DNA of 64,000 nt from Carnobacterium funditum DSM 5970 (GTDB taxonomy: Bacteria; Bacillota; Bacilli; Lactobacillales; Carnobacteriaceae), in NCBI RefSeq assembly GCF_000744185.1, contig NZ_JQLL01000001.1:2137001-2201000 (forward strand). Direction: 5' to 3'. Positions within the stretch are counted from its first letter, which is position 1; the number at the start of each line of letters is the position of its first letter. The position numbers and the translations under genes were made by a program. The notes beneath the pieces are model-generated. The model saw only the letters and a list, made by a program, of their open reading frames with translations. It was not told the DNA's origin and searched no databases. Shown piece by piece: positions 25,440-33,871 of this stretch.

Positions 25440-25570
25440 AAAAAGTCAGAAAAGCGTTTTCGACATATTGATTTGTCTACTCAGAGTCGATACAATGAAG
25501 CGTAACAGAGAATTATACTTAAAATAGATAACGAACTGTAAAAAAAAGAAAAATAGATGGGGTGAACTGC

Positions 25571-27127
25571 GTGGCAATAACGACTGATTTAACAAATGTT
25601 GAAAAGATTGTAGTGCTTGATTTTGGAAGTCAATACAATCAATTAATTACACGTCGTATTAGAGAATTCGGTGTGTTTTCTGAACTGATTTCTCACAAAG
25701 TAACAGCAAAAGAGCTAAGCAATATGAATGCAAAAGGCATTATTTTCTCAGGTGGACCGATGAGTGTATACGATGACGGTGCTTATTCTGTTGATCCTGC
25801 TATCTTTGAACTGGGAATTCCTATCTTAGGCATTTGTTATGGCATGCAGCTGATGACAACTGCACTAGGTGGAAAAGTAGAAGCCAGTTCAAATCGTGAA
25901 TATGGAAAAGCTGGTATTCAAATAACGAATGCTCAGGCCCCTTTATTTAAAGGTTTAGCAAAAGAAGAGACCGTTTGGATGAGTCATGGCGATTTAGTCA
26001 CTCAAGTTCCGACAGGTTTTGAAGTTGCAGCAACGAGTCCACATTGCCCAATTGCATCGATGGTTGATTCGAAAAGGAATTTTCATGCGGTTCAATTCCA
26101 TCCAGAAGTACGTCACACGGAACAAGGAAATGCAATGCTAAAAAACTTTGCTTTTTCTGTTTGTGATTGCAAAGGAACGTGGAGCATCAGTAACTTTATC
26201 GATATTGAAATTGCAAAAATTCGTGAAACAGTTGGGACTAAAAATGTCTTATTAGCCTTATCTGGCGGAGTAGACTCAAGTGTTGTAGGAGTCTTATTGC
26301 AAAAAGCTATTGGAGAGCAATTGACGTGTATTTTTGTTGATCACGGCCTATTGCGTAAAAATGAAGGCGATCAAGTTATGGATAGTTTAGAAGGTAAATT
26401 TGGTTTAAATGTCATCAGAGTAGACGCTAAAAAACGCTTCATGGATAAACTAATTGGTGTTAGTGACCCAGAACAAAAACGTAAAATTATCGGAAATGAA
26501 TTTATTTATGTTTTTGATGATGAAGCAACAAAACTAAAAGGGATTGAATTCTTAGCGCAAGGCACCCTTTATACGGATGTGATTGAAAGTGGAACAGATA
26601 CAGCTCAAACCATCAAATCACACCATAACGTTGGCGGACTTCCTGAAGACATGCAATTCAAATTAATTGAACCATTGAACACGTTATTTAAAGATGAAGT
26701 ACGTGAATTAGGAATTGAATTAGGTATGCCAGAAAGCTTAGTATGGCGTCAACCATTCCCAGGTCCTGGATTAGGTATTCGTGTACTTGGCGAACTAACT
26801 GAAGAAAAAATAGAAATCGTACGTGAAAGTGATGCTATTCTACGTGAAGAAATCGCATTAGCTGGACTTGATCGTGACGTGTGGCAATACTTTACCGTTT
26901 TACCTGGTATCCGTAGTGTTGGTGTGATGGGCGACGGACGGACGTATGATTACACTGTTGGTGTTCGTGCGGTTACTTCAATCGACGGTATGACAAGTGA
27001 TTTTGCTCGTATCCCATGGGATGTCTTGCAAAAAATATCTGTCCGTATCGTAAACGAAGTTGCTCACGTTAACCGTATCGTGTACGACATAACGAGCAAA
27101 CCACCTTCTACTATCGAGTGGGAATGA
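25571..27127 (+). CDS. guaA: GMP synthase (glutamine-hydrolysing)
   Basis: GuaA converts XMP to GMP with glutamine and ATP. An N-terminal class I glutamine amidotransferase holds GICYGMQLM with the catalytic cysteine near residue 87, and HPEV near 178. The ATP-pyrophosphatase P-loop [13 protein letters not shown] lies near 232. The C-terminal dimerisation domain has [14 protein letters not shown] and ends in PPSTIEWE. The GTG at 25571, with GGGGTGA about 8 bases upstream, gives 518 residues; another GTG nine bases earlier is possible. No purine riboswitch is recognisable upstream. Confidence 0.95.
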
Positions 27128-27134
27128 AAATAGA

Positions 27135-27180
27135 AAACCTGTTAGACGTTGGTAATTCAACGTTCTAACAGGTTTTTTTA
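27135..27180 (+). terminator. Terminator after guaA
   Basis: AACCTGTTAGACGTTG pairs with CAACGTTCTAACAGGTT (one bulge) around a 6-base loop, followed by seven T. Confidence 0.88.
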
Positions 27181-27415
27181 TTGCACTGGACTTAAATGGG
27201 ACGTAATTTGTAAATCGTTTAATTGTTTGGCCATATCTTGTTTTTTTATAGATAACTATATCCTGAATAATTCATACTTTTTATGAAATGCTCTAGAAAA
27301 ACTGTTCTAATGCTAGTTTTCGTTAATTTTCGCAGCACCCTTTGGGAGAGCAAAAAGAACCTGAATCTGCTAGGGTTAAAGCGACTAAACATAACCAAAG
27401 AAAGGGGTTCTCTTT

Positions 27416-28190
27416 ATGGAAACTTTGCATAAAAATCGTTTGCCTTTCAATTCAAACATTACGGTATTTCACTCTGGTGGTAATTTATCCTCAGATTCTG
27501 GGTTGATATTAGTTAAGGAGTTCATGCACAACATTAATTTTTCTAACTTTTTGAAACAAAACCTCACTATTAATGAGAATTGACTTTACTATAATCATGC
27601 TAATCATTCAATCATTGAACAAATCATTTTCCAATTAATTGCTGGATATCAAACGGATTCTTCGGCTGACGTTTTATCAAAAGATCCCATTTTTCAGAAC
27701 TTATTAGCTAAAGAGCAGCTTGCTTCACAACCGTTTATTTCTCGTTTATAGGATTGGTTAAGTCAGAAAAATATTTCTCGATTATAAGAAGTCAATCAAA
27801 TCCTGATGGATAAAGCACATACTGCGCGTAATACAACTGAAATGATTTTCGATCTAGACTCAACACATTCGGATACCTTTGGCAATCAGGAAACATCGGG
27901 GTATAACGCCCATTACCAAACGAATGGCTATCATCCGCTTGTTGCTTTTGAAGGTCTGACCGGTGACTTTTTGAAAGCAGAACTTCGTTCTTGTAACGTT
28001 TACACAGTCAATGGTGTTGCAGATTTTGTCCGGCCACTTTTTGACCATTATCAAGAAATCGTACCTGTAAGCTCTATTCTAGTACGTGCAGATAGTGGTT
28101 TTGTAACTCCTGAATGATATAAGCTGTGTGAAGAATATCAAAAATTTTATGCTGTTCAAACGTTTAAAAAAAAAGCTAATTTCAAAGGGT
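27416..28190 (+). pseudogene. IS1380-family transposase remnant
   Basis: From the ATG at 27416, behind AAAGGGG, one frame reads as the N-terminal and central part of an IS1380-type DDE transposase. It has SDSGLILVKEF near residue 25, then IIEQIIFQLIAGYQTDSSADVLSKDP, then FDLDSTHSDTFGNQE, a likely first catalytic aspartate segment, and VRADSGFVTPE. Four in-frame stops interrupt it (27581, 27749, 27785, 28115) without any frame change. About 40% of the C-terminus is missing; the 96-bp inverted-repeat copy starts about 45 bases further on. Confidence 0.82.
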
Positions 28191-28236
28191 CAGTGTGTCT
28201 AAAATTCTTGATTTCCCGACAAAAAAATTGATGACT

Positions 28237-28332
28237 TGGAAATTTGAAGTAAAATAAGTGAATCTAACAAACGAATGACCTGAAAGAAGTGGAAAATACA
28301 CGAATTATTATTTTTTGAAGAAGTATGAATCA
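28237..28332. repeat. Left copy of a 96-bp inverted repeat
   Basis: This segment matches the reverse complement of 32791-32886 at about 90 of 96 positions by hand alignment. The two copies enclose the cytochrome b5/flavocytochrome/two-component module. Outside both copies the sequences diverge. The left copy abuts the IS1380 remnant. Confidence 0.9.
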
Positions 28333-28350
28333 ATCAGGACTGATAGTATT

Positions 28351-28408
28351 AATAAAAGTAGCCACCGACCAATTCATATCACAGAATTGACCAACGGCTA
28401 CTTTTATT
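28351..28408. terminator. Terminator downstream of the cytochrome b5 lipoprotein gene
   Basis: AATAAAAGTAGCC pairs with GGCTACTTTTATT, and GACCAATTC with GAATTGACC (partly offset), forming a long two-part stem. A and T runs lie at its ends. On the minus strand it ends the lipoprotein transcript. Confidence 0.75.
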
Positions 28409-28437
28409 ATCATGCAGTTTCATGAATGCTTGTTAGA

Positions 28438-28860
28438 TCATTCAACCAATGTTCCAACAATCAGCAGACCATTTAACACGGAGCTGCCGTGCGGAGAACT
28501 GTTGATGGCGGTTGTGCAGTCGGTACCCGCTTGTACGCCATAATGATTTCCGTTCTGCCATTTATCCACATGGGTGACATCGTAGACGTTGCCGTCAACG
28601 GTGACATAGGCATCATTCCCGTTCTTTCCATCATATTGCGATAATTCATCAAGGGTAAAGTTTTTTGTATTCGATTGGGTACCAGAAGATGAAGCAATGT
28701 CGGATGAAGGTGTAGCTTCCGAGGATGAAACAACTGAACTGGCAGCACTACTGGTAGAAGCCTTCTCAATAGTAGTTTTCTGAGTCGTCCCGCATCCCAC
28801 GAAAAGTAAGGATGCACCTAGTAAGAAGATAATCATTTTTAATTTATTGTTATTTTTCAT
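28438..28860 (-). CDS. Surface lipoprotein with cytochrome b5-like heme-binding domain
   Basis: The 140-residue protein starts with a lipoprotein signal (LLFVGCG, lipid cysteine at about residue 23). A Ser/Thr/Ala-rich linker follows (about 30-66), then a cytochrome b5-like domain (about 68-140). FTLDELSQYDG opens the domain. The two likely heme histidines are in NGNHYGVQAGTD and SSPHGSSVL. It is therefore likely an outer-face heme protein tethered to the membrane. It lies 34 bases after the flavocytochrome gene in the same direction, behind AAAGGAGA. The pair would move electrons outward; that role is inference. Confidence 0.85.
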   Translation of the reverse strand: MKNNNKLKMIIFLLGASLLFVGCGTTQKTTIEKASTSSAASSVVSSSEATPSSDIASSSGTQSNTKNFTLDELSQYDGKNGNDAYVTVDGNVYDVTHVDKWQNGNHYGVQAGTDCTTAINSSPHGSSVLNGLLIVGTLVE

Positions 28861-28894
28861 TTTTGGTTCTCCTTTTTTTGATTCTTATCATTTT

Positions 28895-30226
28895 TTATAA
28901 TCCAAATGATTCGAAGTGAATTTTTTGTTTTGAAACATTTTTGGAAACTAGCGCTGATTCAATGGTATGCATAAACTTTTTGGGACCGCAGAGAACAAAC
29001 TCGCTAGTCGAACAGGGAACTTTAGTCGCTTCGAAAATAGTTTCCGTTTTTTCTGCATTCAAGTAACCGTTCTTGGTTGAATAAAAAGGAACGAATATGA
29101 AATTGGGCATATCTTTCTGGAAAGAAGCTAGTTCCGCTGCATAGGCAAGTTCATTCTCGTTGCGCAAACTCCAGATGAGTACTGTTTTATTTTTGAATTT
29201 TTTTTGGCGAAGGCTTTCCAAGATGCTCAACATAGGTGTAACACCAACACCTCCAGCAATCAGCACTAAGCTTTTTTCCGTTTTTTGGATGTCTTCCAGT
29301 GGCTGCCATAACCCACCATAAGGACCTTCGACGGTCACTTTCGTTCCAACCTTGATATGTTGGATGATATGCGTGTAATCCCCGGAATTTTTGATGGATA
29401 CGGAAAGAACATGCGGATTTTCGGGTGCGGAAGTCAGAGAAAAAGGGTGTTCTTCAAAAGTGTATTTTTCATCCTTGACCCTTAAATAGATGAACTGTCC
29501 GGCGTTGTAATCAAAAATCTGTCCGTTTTCGGCTTCCAGCGTCAAGCTGACAAGCTGGTCAGTTTCATTCACTGCACTGGTTATGGTATAAATATTTTTA
29601 TTTAATAGAAAACGTCTGATTAGCTTATGGTACACATAGAAGCTCAAAGATACGATGAAATAAAGGGCGTACATCATAGTCAACGTCATATCGGCCCGAA
29701 CAACATAGGCGATGGTGATGACATGTACAGATAGTGAGATAATGGCAACAATAGTAAAATTATGCAGAAATTTCATAGTTCCGTATTTAGCGAATGCGAA
29801 ATTTCCCAATGTATCCAACACTACGTTTATTATTTTGATTCTTCGTAGCCAGCCAGTCATGAAAAGCACAGATAAGACGGTCAACAGTAAGAATAGCATG
29901 ATGGCAAAATCTCCAAAGACAGTCGAAAATTCGAACTCTCCCCAAGCAAGACTGGCCCATTCTTTATGCAACATGCCAAGCGCCAAAGCGACGATGGCCA
30001 TGATGCCGTGGAAACGATGGAATTTATCCAGACTAAAATGTTTTTCGATGAATTTAGGTCTTGCGGCCGTTATCAGTTCAGACAACAACCAAGTGTAGCT
30101 GATGATTCCAATAAAAGCGGGTGCTGCGATACTGAAGTTTAGACCCTTTAGCGAGATGAAGGCAATGGGCAAGGGGCTCAAGAAATAAACAGCGAGAATC
30201 ATAATTTGGATTACTTTTCTTTTCAT
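28895..30226 (-). CDS. Ferric reductase/NOX-like membrane flavocytochrome
   Basis: The 443-residue protein has an N-terminal ferric-reductase-like transmembrane domain with about six helices (residues 5-210). Its histidines (for example FHRFHG near 69, HK near 86, LHNF near 154 and SVHVI near 165) could hold b-type heme. A ferredoxin-reductase FAD domain follows with HPFSLTSAP near 263, then an NAD(P)-binding domain with AGGVGVTPMLSIL near 323 and FVLCGPKKFMH near 413. It should carry electrons from cytosolic NAD(P)H across the membrane. The acceptor may be the adjacent cytochrome b5 lipoprotein, ferric iron or oxygen. Confidence 0.87.
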   Translation of the reverse strand: MKRKVIQIMILAVYFLSPLPIAFISLKGLNFSIAAPAFIGIISYTWLLSELITAARPKFIEKHFSLDKFHRFHGIMAIVALALGMLHKEWASLAWGEFEFSTVFGDFAIMLFLLLTVLSVLFMTGWLRRIKIINVVLDTLGNFAFAKYGTMKFLHNFTIVAIISLSVHVITIAYVVRADMTLTMMYALYFIVSLSFYVYHKLIRRFLLNKNIYTITSAVNETDQLVSLTLEAENGQIFDYNAGQFIYLRVKDEKYTFEEHPFSLTSAPENPHVLSVSIKNSGDYTHIIQHIKVGTKVTVEGPYGGLWQPLEDIQKTEKSLVLIAGGVGVTPMLSILESLRQKKFKNKTVLIWSLRNENELAYAAELASFQKDMPNFIFVPFYSTKNGYLNAEKTETIFEATKVPCSTSEFVLCGPKKFMHTIESALVSKNVSKQKIHFESFGL

Positions 30227-30375
30227 AAGTATTTCCTCCGTTTTTCTTATTTATATTCAGTATAGATAAGAAAGTTTAGGGCAGCATGAAGGTTAGCTGA
30301 AAGTTAGCTGAAGATGACATTTCCGTTCAATCAGGAAGTTAAAACGTGATATAATAAAATAAAGAGGTGGACACA

Positions 30376-31059
30376 ATGAACGGGAAACAAACGCGTGTTT
30401 TGGTGGTGGATGACGAACAGAACATCCGTGATTTTTTAACGATGGGCTTGGAAGACGAAGGGTACAGTGTCGAAACCGCAAAAGATGGCTTGTCAGCATT
30501 GACGAAAATGCATCAAAATCCTTGCGACATCGTCATTTTGGATGTTATGATGCCAGGCATGGATGGCTACGAATGTTGTCGCATGCTGAAGCAGAAATAC
30601 GAGGTCGTCGTTATTATGCTGACCGCGAAGGGCCAAGCGGAAGATACCGTAAAAGGGCTGAAAATCGGGGCGGACGATTATCTGGCCAAACCCTTCAGTT
30701 TTATGGAGTTGCTGATGCGGATGGAGGTCCGCTTGAATAGTCGCTTTCCGCAAAAGAACTCAGTTATCTGCAAAGGTCCCTTTTCCGTCGATGATGGCCG
30801 CCATGAGATTATGTTTAAAGATAAAAAACTCGATTTGACACCCACGGAGTATAAACTAATGTGTTTGCTGTTTGATAACGTGAACATCGTCATCTCAAAA
30901 GAAACAATCATGAATCAAGTCTGGGGTTATGATTATTTCAGCAGTTCGAATGTAGTAGAGGTGTATGTCCGCAACTTAAGAGAAAAACTGCAGGATACAG
31001 AGCACTGTTACATAAAAACTGAGCGCGGATTCGGTTATAAATTGGATGTGGAAGGATGA
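30376..31059 (+). CDS. OmpR-family response regulator
   Basis: The 227-residue regulator has a receiver domain (about residues 5-118) with VLVVDDE at the start, the phosphoacceptor aspartate in VILDVMMPG near 54, and conserved Lys in DDYLAKPFSF near 103. A winged-helix DNA-binding domain occupies about 130-225. I chose the ATG at 30376, behind AGAGGTGG; a GTG nine bases earlier overlaps the ribosome site. It overlaps the histidine kinase by 4 bases and is divergent from the flavocytochrome gene, so it probably controls that operon. Confidence 0.9.
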   Translation: MNGKQTRVLVVDDEQNIRDFLTMGLEDEGYSVETAKDGLSALTKMHQNPCDIVILDVMMPGMDGYECCRMLKQKYEVVVIMLTAKGQAEDTVKGLKIGADDYLAKPFSFMELLMRMEVRLNSRFPQKNSVICKGPFSVDDGRHEIMFKDKKLDLTPTEYKLMCLLFDNVNIVISKETIMNQVWGYDYFSSSNVVEVYVRNLREKLQDTEHCYIKTERGFGYKLDVEG

Positions 31060-32396
31060 AAATGAAAAACTTGAGCAAGCAACTGTTCCAGAGGAGTATG
31101 CTGCTGTTGCTGTTGTTTTTGGTGATTATTGGTTTTTTGCAGACGAGCTTAATCTATCTCTATAGGGAAAATCAGAGGAAATCGGAAGTGACCAGCTACT
31201 TGCATGCCCTACAGCAAACCAAAAATCTGTTCGGTGAAGGAGAGCCGTTGGCTGAAAAGGCGACAGAGCTTGCCGAGGATATGATTTCAGATGCGAACAT
31301 CATTTTTTATGCAAGCTCCGGGGAAAAGCAAATGATTCACATCAATCGAGTATTTTTAAAGGACAAACAGACCGCGACGTACACTGAACCTGTTTATTAT
31401 GAAGGGAAAGCAATCGGGACGATTGAAGTCATCTATTCCATCCATGAGTCGTTGGAGTTGATGTTTACGCAGTTGATTATTTATGTAATTGCCAGCATTA
31501 TTATCCTTTTGCTAGCCTGGCTAGTCTATAAACGTATGTTGCGGAAAACGTTGGATCCCTTGGATCGCGTCATTGCATCGGTTTCTGAAGTTGTCGTCAG
31601 CAATTTGGATGAGCCCATTGTTATCGCTGATGCTCAAGCGGATATAGCCAAACTAGTTGATTCGACTAATGAGTTGAAAGCAAGGTTACATGATTCTTTT
31701 CAAACTATTGAAGAGAATCAGCGTAAGTTACAACAATTCGTTTCCGATGCTTCACATGAACTAAAGACGCCGCTAACGACAATCCGAGGCTATTCAGAAA
31801 TTCTGTTGCGAGGTAAACTGGATAACCCCGAGAGGATACGCTATTCTCTAGAAAGTATGCTTGATCAGACGAAACGCTTGACGAATATTGTGAACGAACT
31901 GCTGGAATTATCAAAGTTGGATCGAAAGGTAGAGATGGGTAAAACCGAATTGAACCTGAATGATGTTCTAGAAGAACTTTTTCCCTTGTTGAAGATGATT
32001 CAAGAAGGCCGGGAAATCAAACTGAGGTTAGGCGAGGTACCGAATGTTTTGATGAACCGCAACAAAATAGAACAGGTCATTTTAAATATCGTCCAGAATG
32101 CTATTTTCCATTCCGATAAAAAGACTCCGATTCTGATGCGTACCTACTATGAAAATGAAAAAGTTATCATGGCGATTACTGATTACGGGGAGGGTATTGC
32201 CGAGGAACATCTGCCGCTCATCTTTGACCGGTTTTACCGCATCGATACTGATCGCTCACGCGAAATTGGAGGGACTGGTTTAGGCTTGGCCATCTGTCAA
32301 GATATCATGCATGCACATAACGGAGAAATCAAACTACAAAGTATTCTAGGAAAAGAAACGACATTCTTTATCCTGTTCCCGAGGATGAATGATTGA
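31056..32396 (+). CDS. Membrane sensor histidine kinase
   Basis: The 446-residue kinase has two membrane segments (about 12-34 and 138-160) that bracket a roughly 100-residue outer sensing domain. A linker of about 50 residues, possibly a HAMP domain, follows. The H box SDASHELKTPLTTIRGYSE holds the phosphorylated histidine near 232, with the N box VILNIVQNAIFHS near 343 and G boxes DYGEGIAE and GGTGLGLAIC near 374 and 402. It overlaps the regulator gene (ATGA). The signal is unknown; redox or metal state would fit the neighbouring flavocytochrome. The codon use is GC-richer than the window average. Confidence 0.9.
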   Translation: MKMKNLSKQLFQRSMLLLLLFLVIIGFLQTSLIYLYRENQRKSEVTSYLHALQQTKNLFGEGEPLAEKATELAEDMISDANIIFYASSGEKQMIHINRVFLKDKQTATYTEPVYYEGKAIGTIEVIYSIHESLELMFTQLIIYVIASIIILLLAWLVYKRMLRKTLDPLDRVIASVSEVVVSNLDEPIVIADAQADIAKLVDSTNELKARLHDSFQTIEENQRKLQQFVSDASHELKTPLTTIRGYSEILLRGKLDNPERIRYSLESMLDQTKRLTNIVNELLELSKLDRKVEMGKTELNLNDVLEELFPLLKMIQEGREIKLRLGEVPNVLMNRNKIEQVILNIVQNAIFHSDKKTPILMRTYYENEKVIMAITDYGEGIAEEHLPLIFDRFYRIDTDRSREIGGTGLGLAICQDIMHAHNGEIKLQSILGKETTFFILFPRMND

Positions 32397-32451
32397 CCAA
32401 TTTTGTGAAGTAGGCAGTGTACTTTATTCCACAGTGCGAATCAACTATAAA

Positions 32452-32490
32452 AAAACGGGGCTGCCTTATTTGATACAGCCCTGTGTTCTA
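32452..32490 (+). terminator. Terminator after the two-component genes
   Basis: GGGGCTG pairs with CAGCCCT around a 12-base loop, with a T-rich tail. The Cas9 remnant on the minus strand ends at its edge. Confidence 0.6.
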
Positions 32491-32790
32491 TTTGTAAGAT
32501 TGATTGGGTTCAGGGTCAATTTTATGTGAATACTTAATTTGGTTTCCATAATTTCTTAATTGGCTGGTAAATATTAACGATTTATTATCAAACATGTGGT
32601 CTTTATCCAGAATTTCACCAGTATCGGAATCAACTGTAAGGCCTTCGGTGCTAAAAGAAGTGTGGTTCAAATTACTTAAATAATGGTATCTGACCAATAG
32701 CCATAACGATCAAAGCGTCAATAGCATGATGTCGATGGACATCATCTTTAACCAACACTAGAAAAATTAATATTTAAACCTAAATCTGAA
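32488..32790 (-). pseudogene. Cas9 C-terminal fragment (RuvC-III region), decayed
   Basis: On the minus strand, KDDVHRHHAIDALIVMAIG (about 32690-32750) matches the Cas9 RuvC-III motif, in which HHA-DA is the hallmark. After one frame change, a piece with TVDSDTGEILDKDHMFDN and then IKYSHKIDPEPNQ follows and stops at 32488. It lines up with the small Cas9 type of Staphylococcus aureus, which has KHHAEDALIIA and later KYSHRVDKKPN at a similar distance. The rest of Cas9, cas1/cas2 and any repeat-spacer array are absent. It is a relic, not a working nuclease. Confidence 0.72.
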
Positions 32791-32886
32791 TGATTCATAC
32801 TTCTTCAAAAAATAATAATTTGTGTATTTTTTACTTCGTTCAGGTTATTCGTTTGTTAGATTCTCTTATTTTACTTCAAATTTCCA
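32791..32886. repeat. Right copy of the 96-bp inverted repeat
   Basis: This is the inverted partner of 28237-28332, with about six mismatches in 96. Its outer edge lies where the DUF4352-like gene is cut off. Its inner edge lies where recognisable Cas9 sequence begins. Confidence 0.9.
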
Positions 32887-32899
32887 AATCACTAATTTA

Positions 32900-33200
32900 T
32901 TGGTTTAGAGCTTCTTCACCACGTACGACATTAGAAATTTTAGTGGTGACTGTTCCTGCTACAGAACTAGAGTCATTATCGTAATATATAACATCCCACG
33001 CTGCAGATTCTCCAATAGGAACAGGGTACTTCTCTATTTTGGTATGCTAGCCTTTTTTATTGATTCTGCCTCACTAGAAACTTCTTCAGTAGTAGCAGAA
33101 TTAGCATTGATACTTTTTACGGTAACGTCTGAAGATTTCCCATATGCGACTAAAAAGAGACTTGAAATCCTAATAAAATCATATATTTAAATTTATTCAT
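32900..33200 (-). pseudogene. Secreted DUF4352-like protein gene, truncated and frameshifted
   Basis: The ATG at 33200 overlaps the stop of the preceding lipoprotein gene (TAATG). The frame starts MNKFKYMILLGFQVSF, then breaks. Later segments read SSDVTVKSINANSATTEEVS and, after another shift, KYPVPIGESAAWDVIYYDND followed by TKISNVVRGEEALNQ. This resembles secreted DUF4352/DUF5067-type proteins. The gene is cut at the right inverted repeat and has at least two frameshifts. The family call is tentative. Confidence 0.65.
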
Positions 33201-33751
33201 TATTCTGTATCCTCCATTTTAATGAAATCTGTTGCATCTGAAATAATATGATCTTCATCATCTTTAATTATGATAGTCGGGTGAGTAGTTCCATCATAAA
33301 AATCTGAGTTTAAGTATAATTGTCTACTAAAACTATCCATAATAAGAGTGAAGAAGCCATTTGTTATTTCACTCATTTCAGATTTATCTGAGTTACTAAT
33401 GACCAATTCGATAGTGTTATCATCAGTCATTAACGATGAAACAATTTTAGGAGAATCTTCGCTATCTACATTATTACCAACTTCTCGTTCATCCAAAGAT
33501 TCTATGTATTCTTTAAACTGACGCTTGTTAAGATTTATTTTTTCCCAATCAATTTCTTCTACACTTCCAATTTTAGCAAACTCATCAGTCGTTGATTGAT
33601 CTAATTTATCTAATCCATCTTCTTTGGGGGTAATGGATTCGCTTTCTACTACCTCCGGGTAAGAATCATTATTACTAGTTTCTTCAGTACCACAAGCTCC
33701 TAAAATAAAGATGCACGCAATGGTGAGTGCTGACATTTTGAATACATTCAA
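33200..33751 (-). CDS. Lipoprotein of unknown function
   Basis: The 183-residue product has a lipoprotein signal (SALTIACIFILGACG, lipid cysteine near residue 19) followed by an acidic, low-complexity stretch and a possible small folded domain (about 115-175). I start it at the TTG at 33751, 8 bases after AAGGAGGA on the minus strand. The frame is open further upstream but without a ribosome site. It is translationally coupled to the broken DUF4352-like gene, so its partner has probably been lost. I do not recognise a family. Confidence 0.7.
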   Translation of the reverse strand: MNVFKMSALTIACIFILGACGTEETSNNDSYPEVVESESITPKEDGLDKLDQSTTDEFAKIGSVEEIDWEKINLNKRQFKEYIESLDEREVGNNVDSEDSPKIVSSLMTDDNTIELVISNSDKSEMSEITNGFFTLIMDSFSRQLYLNSDFYDGTTHPTIIIKDDEDHIISDATDFIKMEDTE

Positions 33752-33871
33752 TTTATACTCCTCCTTAGATAGCGCAATTTTTTTATAGAATCTTACTTTC
33801 CGTAATAAATTTAGCATGTTATAATTCAATTTACAAAGATAATAATCTTATAATTGCTCTCTCATTAATTA

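Follow-up and report, generated by a model that had tools for sequence, protein, structure and literature searches.

A probable relic of an IS1380 composite transposon around a four-gene redox unit in Carnobacterium funditum DSM 5970

The stretch of the Carnobacterium funditum DSM 5970 genome analysed here (64,000 nucleotides; contig NZ_JQLL01000001.1, positions 2,137,001 to 2,201,000; hereafter the window) carries, beside guaA, a block of four redox-related genes bracketed by inverted repeats. Both repeats are 3' (right) ends of a 1669-bp insertion sequence (IS) of the IS1380 family that is present in two oppositely oriented copies, and the 4.45-kb block fits between their tips. At its right edge the block holds a scrap of a cas9 gene that is built like a scrap in another genus, and the interval that it interrupts is uninterrupted in a relative. 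We interpret the segment as what is left of an IS1380 composite transposon after decay, with a probability of roughly 0.63. As expected of a composite transposon, foreign cargo lies between two copies of a single IS. Such a transposon should also possess both outer IS ends, and here the right copy keeps its inner 120 bp alone; because this outer end is missing, the segment is described as a relic and not as a working transposon.

The genomes compared most often are G013 (from another genus of the host family), G015 (from the genus of G013), G001-G004 (from the genus of the window) and those of genus g33. The latter is Trichococcus, as loci from three of its genomes yield alignment statistics that equal those of records under the names T. 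palustris, T. ilyis and T. pasteurii. The features of the segment, with strand in brackets, are as follows.

25562-27127 (+): guaA, the left neighbour; protein 95% identical in G004 and 94% in G001, with DNA synteny
27262-28338 (+): left IS1380-family copy; both ends kept, about 595 bp of the interior (IS 897-1491) gone, stop codons present
28219-28338 (+): left repeat, the right end of the left IS; tip at 28338 toward the module
28339-32784 (no strand): imported block, abutting the right-end tip of an IS on each side
28356-28403 (-): hairpin terminator 3' of the cytochrome-b5 gene; 20-pair stem, in a region common to G013 by alignment
28438-28860 (-): cytochrome-b5-like lipoprotein, 140 amino acids (aa); PF00173, E-value 2.4e-08; PDB 6vz6/6nzx, E-value 2e-13; lipobox by reading
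28895-30226 (-): NOX/ferric-reductase-type membrane flavocytochrome, 443 aa; FAD and NAD domains; PDB 8qt6 over residues 30-439, E-value 7.2e-21
30367-31059 (+): OmpR-type response regulator; PF00072, PF00486
31056-32396 (+): sensor histidine kinase; PF00512, PF02518
32480-32784 (-): type II cas9 remnant; roughly codons 1-17, of which those from about codon 5 onward are present here, joined to approximately residues 718-814
32785-32904 (-): right repeat, an inverted IS1380 copy reduced to its final 120 bp; its tip, at 32785, points toward the module
32905-33200 (-): 5' part of a lipoprotein-like gene, frameshifted; cut at the IS remnant after about residue 103 of 210

A preliminary description of this DNA reported that positions 28237-28332 and the reverse complement of positions 32791-32886 are identical at 90 of 96 positions and that 33 of the 60 bases at 30601-30660 are G or C; both counts were reproduced exactly. 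The full repeat arms are 119 nt in length (28219-28337 and 32786-32904) and 90% complementary, and the match of one arm to the other in a search of the C. funditum genome had an E-value of 9.6e-41, so the pair is not a product of chance. At a threshold of E ≤ 0.001, the left arm as query found three places in this genome, namely both arms and C1:1134129-1134247; the right arm found one extra place, a weak 33-base match at C1:1821704. When the right arm was searched against 59 genomes, 10 of them, including C. funditum, gave matches at E ≤ 0.001: 14 matches fell in G013, and those in the other genomes were mostly short or weaker. The third C. funditum place and the examined G013 copies share the 119-120-bp end and then run on into an element of about 1669 bp, present as an intact copy at C1:1132580-1134248 (L021:581-2249). 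A common intergenic element scattered across the genome, which had been considered as a source of the repeats, is ruled out by these three places (left arm), one of which is an intact IS. A miniature mobile unit bounded by the repeats, also proposed, is ruled out because the IS tips (CCTGAA) at 28338 and 32785 face inward to the module and are not its outer ends.

The termini of the IS are CCTGAATRATTCATAC, in inverted orientation. Its 438 aa transposase (L021:735-2051) matches NF033539 (384.4 bits against a cut-off of 180, E-value: 5.4e-115), the IS1380 family, and also PF13701. Eight IS copies could be judged for target duplications (seven from G013 and one from C. funditum; L029, at the edge of its stretch, was left out), and a perfect 5-bp duplication was found in six of them (L022, L023, L024, L026, L027 and L028). 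The element thus shares its transposase family, terminal inverted repeats and 5-bp duplications with the IS1380 family, but differs in that both copies flanking the block are dead and in that no named element is close: among the best 30 of 204 plasmid records, the top match was an Enterococcus faecium "IS1380 family transposase" (75% DNA identity over 85%) and an ISSsu5-like match stood at 66%. The intact C. funditum copy is 98.9-99.8% identical to the eight copies fetched from the 14 places in G013, although the two genera are far apart, which indicates that the IS has also moved between both genera recently. The dead copies beside the module represent an older version of the IS that is about 10% different. 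A different IS1380-type element (70-86% in pieces) lies at L061:10548-11937 of T. pasteurii, about 0.75 kb from the module and near a contig end.

The left repeat had been described as abutting a dead IS1380-type transposase. A dead IS does lie there, but the repeat is the right end of that same IS. This copy is 90% identical to the intact IS over IS 1-896 and 88% over IS 1492-1669, and its flanks (tatat/actga) show no 5-bp target duplication. Its transposase frame is broken from 27416 onward; a transposase for the repeat, said not to be visible, is therefore present in broken form in the window and intact at the L021 copy. The two IS ends differ from the intact copy at 13 and 17 positions, and they group together in a small tree with a support of 0.831 (from about 120 bp alone).

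The block between the two tips matches G013 at 90% over 4.4 kb (positions 28355-32784, by BLAST). The right end of this match coincides with the right IS tip. On the left, aligning the window, G013 and T. palustris together extends the match approximately to the IS tip, weakly over the last 15 or so bases. As had been noted, the module is richer in G+C than its surroundings: its coding part has a G+C fraction of 0.413 and is the richest stretch of about 4 kb in the window, where sliding 3960-base stretches have a mean of 0.351 (standard deviation 0.019) and a maximum of 0.412 at 28501. Of the suggestion that this is a transposed unit, the foreign, G+C-richer block bracketed by repeats stands; the repeats, however, are not the termini of the unit itself but inward-facing right ends of IS1380 copies.

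The origin of the block is marked most clearly at its right edge. The 335 bp to the right of the kinase gene (32450-32784) are common to G013 and absent from 10 Trichococcus-type loci that were compared, a set in which several genomes occur under two handles. Most of this segment is the cas9 scrap, the fragments of which match the intact Cas9 of G015 (1096 aa; TIGR01865, 655.6 bits) with E-values of 4.6e-21 and 5.7e-6. The cas9 scrap of G013 has the same internal deletion and fusion. The window's scrap is 82% identical to that of G013 over all 305 bp and 78% identical to the intact G015 cas9 over 249 bp, and the position of the IS tip, 32785, corresponds to approximately codon 5 of cas9. In G015, cas9 lies upstream of a peptidoglycan-hydrolase-like gene, and the G013 scrap occupies the same colinear place. 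Among 395 genomes of the order, the scrap was matched at E ≤ 0.001 in 14, C. funditum counted, and besides C. funditum only G013 matches along all 305 bases; G008 and G004 match at 71% over about 230 bases, and the remaining matches are weak. Three Trichococcus-type genomes have weak matches of 44-57 bases, and one of these (G388) carries the module on a different contig. No other piece of this cas9 was found in the C. funditum genome, which has only a distant Cas9-like gene (31%) at C1:1830922. The scrap is thus at home in the genus of G013 and displaced in C. funditum, which gives the direction of transfer.

Where G013 has the redox module, G015 has an apparently complete type II CRISPR-Cas locus (L109:199-7374), with Cas9 identified by profile, and Cas1-, Cas2- and Csn2-like open reading frames and a repeat array by reading alone. 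In four other genomes of this genus (G006, G011, G016 and G017) the two sides of the site are about 0.1-1.7 kb apart, and no convincing cas9 was found there by DNA comparison. The gap in G006 that matches the G013 module site contains a very weak cas9 protein match (C7:9038-9250, L118; E-value: 0.0012), perhaps another relic of that CRISPR locus.

Module core DNA was found in seven of the 395 genomes of the order (C. funditum, G013 and five of genus g33), and the module was counted in six of the 13 genomes of g33, two of which are only 63% and 51% complete. It was not found in G001-G004. In a FastTree analysis the window and G013 are sisters (1.000), followed by T. palustris (0.998); this tree is unrooted and has eight sequences, two of them without difference. 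The module has a G+C fraction of 0.467 in T. palustris, against 0.413 in C. funditum and 0.410 in G013; the window as a whole has 0.351 and a 20-kb stretch of G013 has 0.369. The module's neighbour in T. palustris is a major facilitator superfamily (MFS) transporter gene, and the 3' tail of this gene is also kept in G013; an IS3-like transposase gene (by reading) lies just left of that tail (L065:6810-8135). Among four named Trichococcus loci, those of T. ilyis and T. pasteurii share both flanks, that of T. paludicola shares one side and that of T. palustris neither. The right end of the IS was not matched within the fetched flanks of G013 and ten Trichococcus-type module loci. The preliminary description had held that relatives carrying the module without the repeats would count against a link between the two; such relatives do exist, but theirs are donor-side copies, and the edges of the C. 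funditum block are the IS tips. Against known plasmids, the module gave just two short matches, covering 4% and 2% of the query. Elsewhere in the two genomes, the first 20 kb of contig C2 of C. funditum and of contig C5 of G013 match plasmids from Carnobacterium, Desemzia, Enterococcus and other genera, in keeping with the family Carnobacteriaceae.

At the target locus, positions 26903-27182 and 32895-33826 of the window match the two sides of an uninterrupted interval in G015, where they are 322 bp apart. An intact 210-aa relative of the cut gene lies there (L123:2046-2678) beside guaA, in a genome that lacks the module, which is what the preliminary description had proposed looking for. The description had placed the right repeat where a DUF4352-like gene is cut: a lipoprotein-like gene is indeed cut at that point, but its G015 relative has no match to any Pfam family at E ≤ 0.01, so the DUF4352 label lacks support. 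As G015 belongs to another genus, the uninterrupted site is that of a relative and not of a sister strain; in G001-G004 the DNA adjoining guaA is different. The spot is variable, with about 12 kb of other genes in G004 (L092:3314-15467), including glycosyltransferase-like and IS21-like open reading frames by reading. That the left outer flank might hold the 3' end now lacking from the cut gene was also considered and rejected, as 691 of 1000 shuffles scored equally well.

Based on these results, we propose the following history. The four-gene redox unit would have passed from a Trichococcus palustris-like chromosome to the cas9 locus of a G013-like bacterium; a source of this kind is suggested because G013 keeps the tail of the MFS gene that adjoins the module in T. 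palustris. Two IS1380 copies would then have inserted on either side of the block, one of them inside cas9 at about codon 5, and the resulting IS-module-IS unit would have moved into the interval between guaA and the lipoprotein gene in the C. funditum lineage. After arrival the left IS would have lost 595 bp. A single deletion could account for the loss of the lipoprotein gene's 3' half as well as of 1.5 kb from the outer side of the right IS. With these losses the unit would no longer be mobile as such. The divergences (82% identity between the window and G013 scraps and 89% between the two IS ends) do not contradict this history, though the stretches compared are short.

Several observations weigh against a composite transposon. 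An intact composite was not seen in any compared genome, and no IS1380 match lies close to the block in G013. With 13 differences in 120 positions, the two IS ends are no fresh, identical pair. No target duplication was seen around the segment, and for the whole unit none can be, as the outer end of the right IS is lost; the intact C. funditum copy (L021) also lacks one, as does L025. Between the guaA terminator and the left IS lie 79 bp (27183-27261) without a match in any of the compared guaA loci. To the right, a close relative of the lipoprotein at 33200-33829 (69%) was found in G015 alone and not in G001-G004; G035 has one at 38%, and the other matches among the 59 genomes are weak. The right flank is thus not proven native and may be of mixed origin.

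Other routes to the same arrangement can be weighed against this evidence. Homologous recombination at IS copies or at flanking genes might have inserted an IS-flanked fragment that entered by transformation or on a plasmid, with no transposition of the whole unit. Such IS copies are present in both genomes, the locus beside guaA varies among relatives, and the close relative of the right-flank lipoprotein is in G015, of the same genus as G013; recombination through IS copies, however, requires prior residents at guaA, none of which were seen at the guaA loci of G015 and G001-G004, and the block of G013 sits at another locus. We regard this route as rather unlikely. The left IS1380 might instead have carried its 3'-adjacent DNA alone, in the manner of ISEcp1 or ISPme1, and inserted against the tip of a resident IS1380. 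One-ended capture on the 3' side is a known habit of the IS1380 family according to PMC9330008, which describes mobilisation of that side by ISPme1, and the module does lie on the 3' side of the left IS. Such an event would nevertheless have had to insert exactly at a resident IS tip and leaves the second inverted tip unexplained, and no outward sequence resembling an IS end was seen at the cas9 end of the block in G013 (an alignment judged by eye, with no statistics); we consider it unlikely.

Still less probable is that the imported island was once larger and was cut down by deletions adjacent to two IS1380 copies that had inserted later and independently. The deletions in both IS copies and the cut gene would fit, but two separate trims, each ending at an IS tip, would be required, and on the outer side of each IS no match to the T. 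palustris or G013 donor loci was found. It is hardly credible that the repeats are the boundaries of a separate miniature element or invertible segment: the pair is inverted and 4.4 kb apart, but its tips face inward, and the third full C. funditum copy and the examined G013 copies belong to a full IS. Nothing was found in favour of a flip by recombination between the repeats, and an inversion leaves no checkable trace here.

The cargo of the proposed composite transposon would probably pass electrons from NAD(P)H through a membrane flavin and hemes to an outside cytochrome b5, under the control of its own two-component system. The flavocytochrome has His73/87 and His155/168 and the motifs HPFSL and GVGVTP. 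Its structural match, PDB 8qt6, is named in the search output as "FAD-binding FR-type domain-containing protein" and is presumably SpNOX. The protein agrees with the filters for NOX/FRE enzymes given in PMC5676040 (four heme histidines, an FAD motif and an NAD(P) motif). With the SpNOX-like bacterial flavocytochromes described there, it has in common the four spaced histidines, both motifs and a membrane part followed by FAD and NAD domains, but its gene differs in adjoining genes for a cytochrome-b5 lipoprotein and a two-component system. Relative to G013, the ratios of nonsynonymous to synonymous substitution rates (dN/dS) were 0.45 for the cytochrome b5, 0.11 for the flavocytochrome, 0.06 for the regulator and 0.07 for the kinase. 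The cargo genes therefore look maintained, although the value for the cytochrome b5 is a weak sign of constraint.

Tn5 and Tn10 are the classical composite transposons with inverted IS copies. The segment described here resembles them in that inverted IS copies bracket a cargo, but this cargo is a redox unit and not drug resistance. One IS outer end is missing, so that, unlike for Tn5 and Tn10, neither mobility nor a target duplication can be demonstrated. With the ISEcp1 and ISPme1 transposable modules (PMC9330008) it shares the IS family and a cargo on the 3' side of the IS; it differs in that a second inverted IS end closes the block.

The event is of a known kind, an IS-bracketed import that is now dead, but its marks of provenance are unusually clear. 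At the block edges, remnants of a transporter gene and of cas9 point to the chromosomes through which the block passed, indicating directional gene transfer, and the IS copies account for where it was cut. It is conceivable, though we hold this only tentatively, that ordinary IS1380 copies carry a self-contained electron-export island (a NOX-type flavocytochrome and a secreted cytochrome-b5 lipoprotein, with a two-component switch of their own) from one genus of lactic acid bacteria to another, with the edge scraps (the MFS tail, then cas9) recording the order of its hosts. If so, the NOX-type enzyme and the outside cytochrome b5 would form an electron outlet of Gram-positive bacteria; among the matches listed, no title or abstract opening was found to describe such a unit in Trichococcus or lactic acid bacteria. 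The candidate four-gene redox unit is carried by nearly half of the Trichococcus-type genomes compared (6/13), and its proteins look to have been maintained after the proposed changes of host genus.

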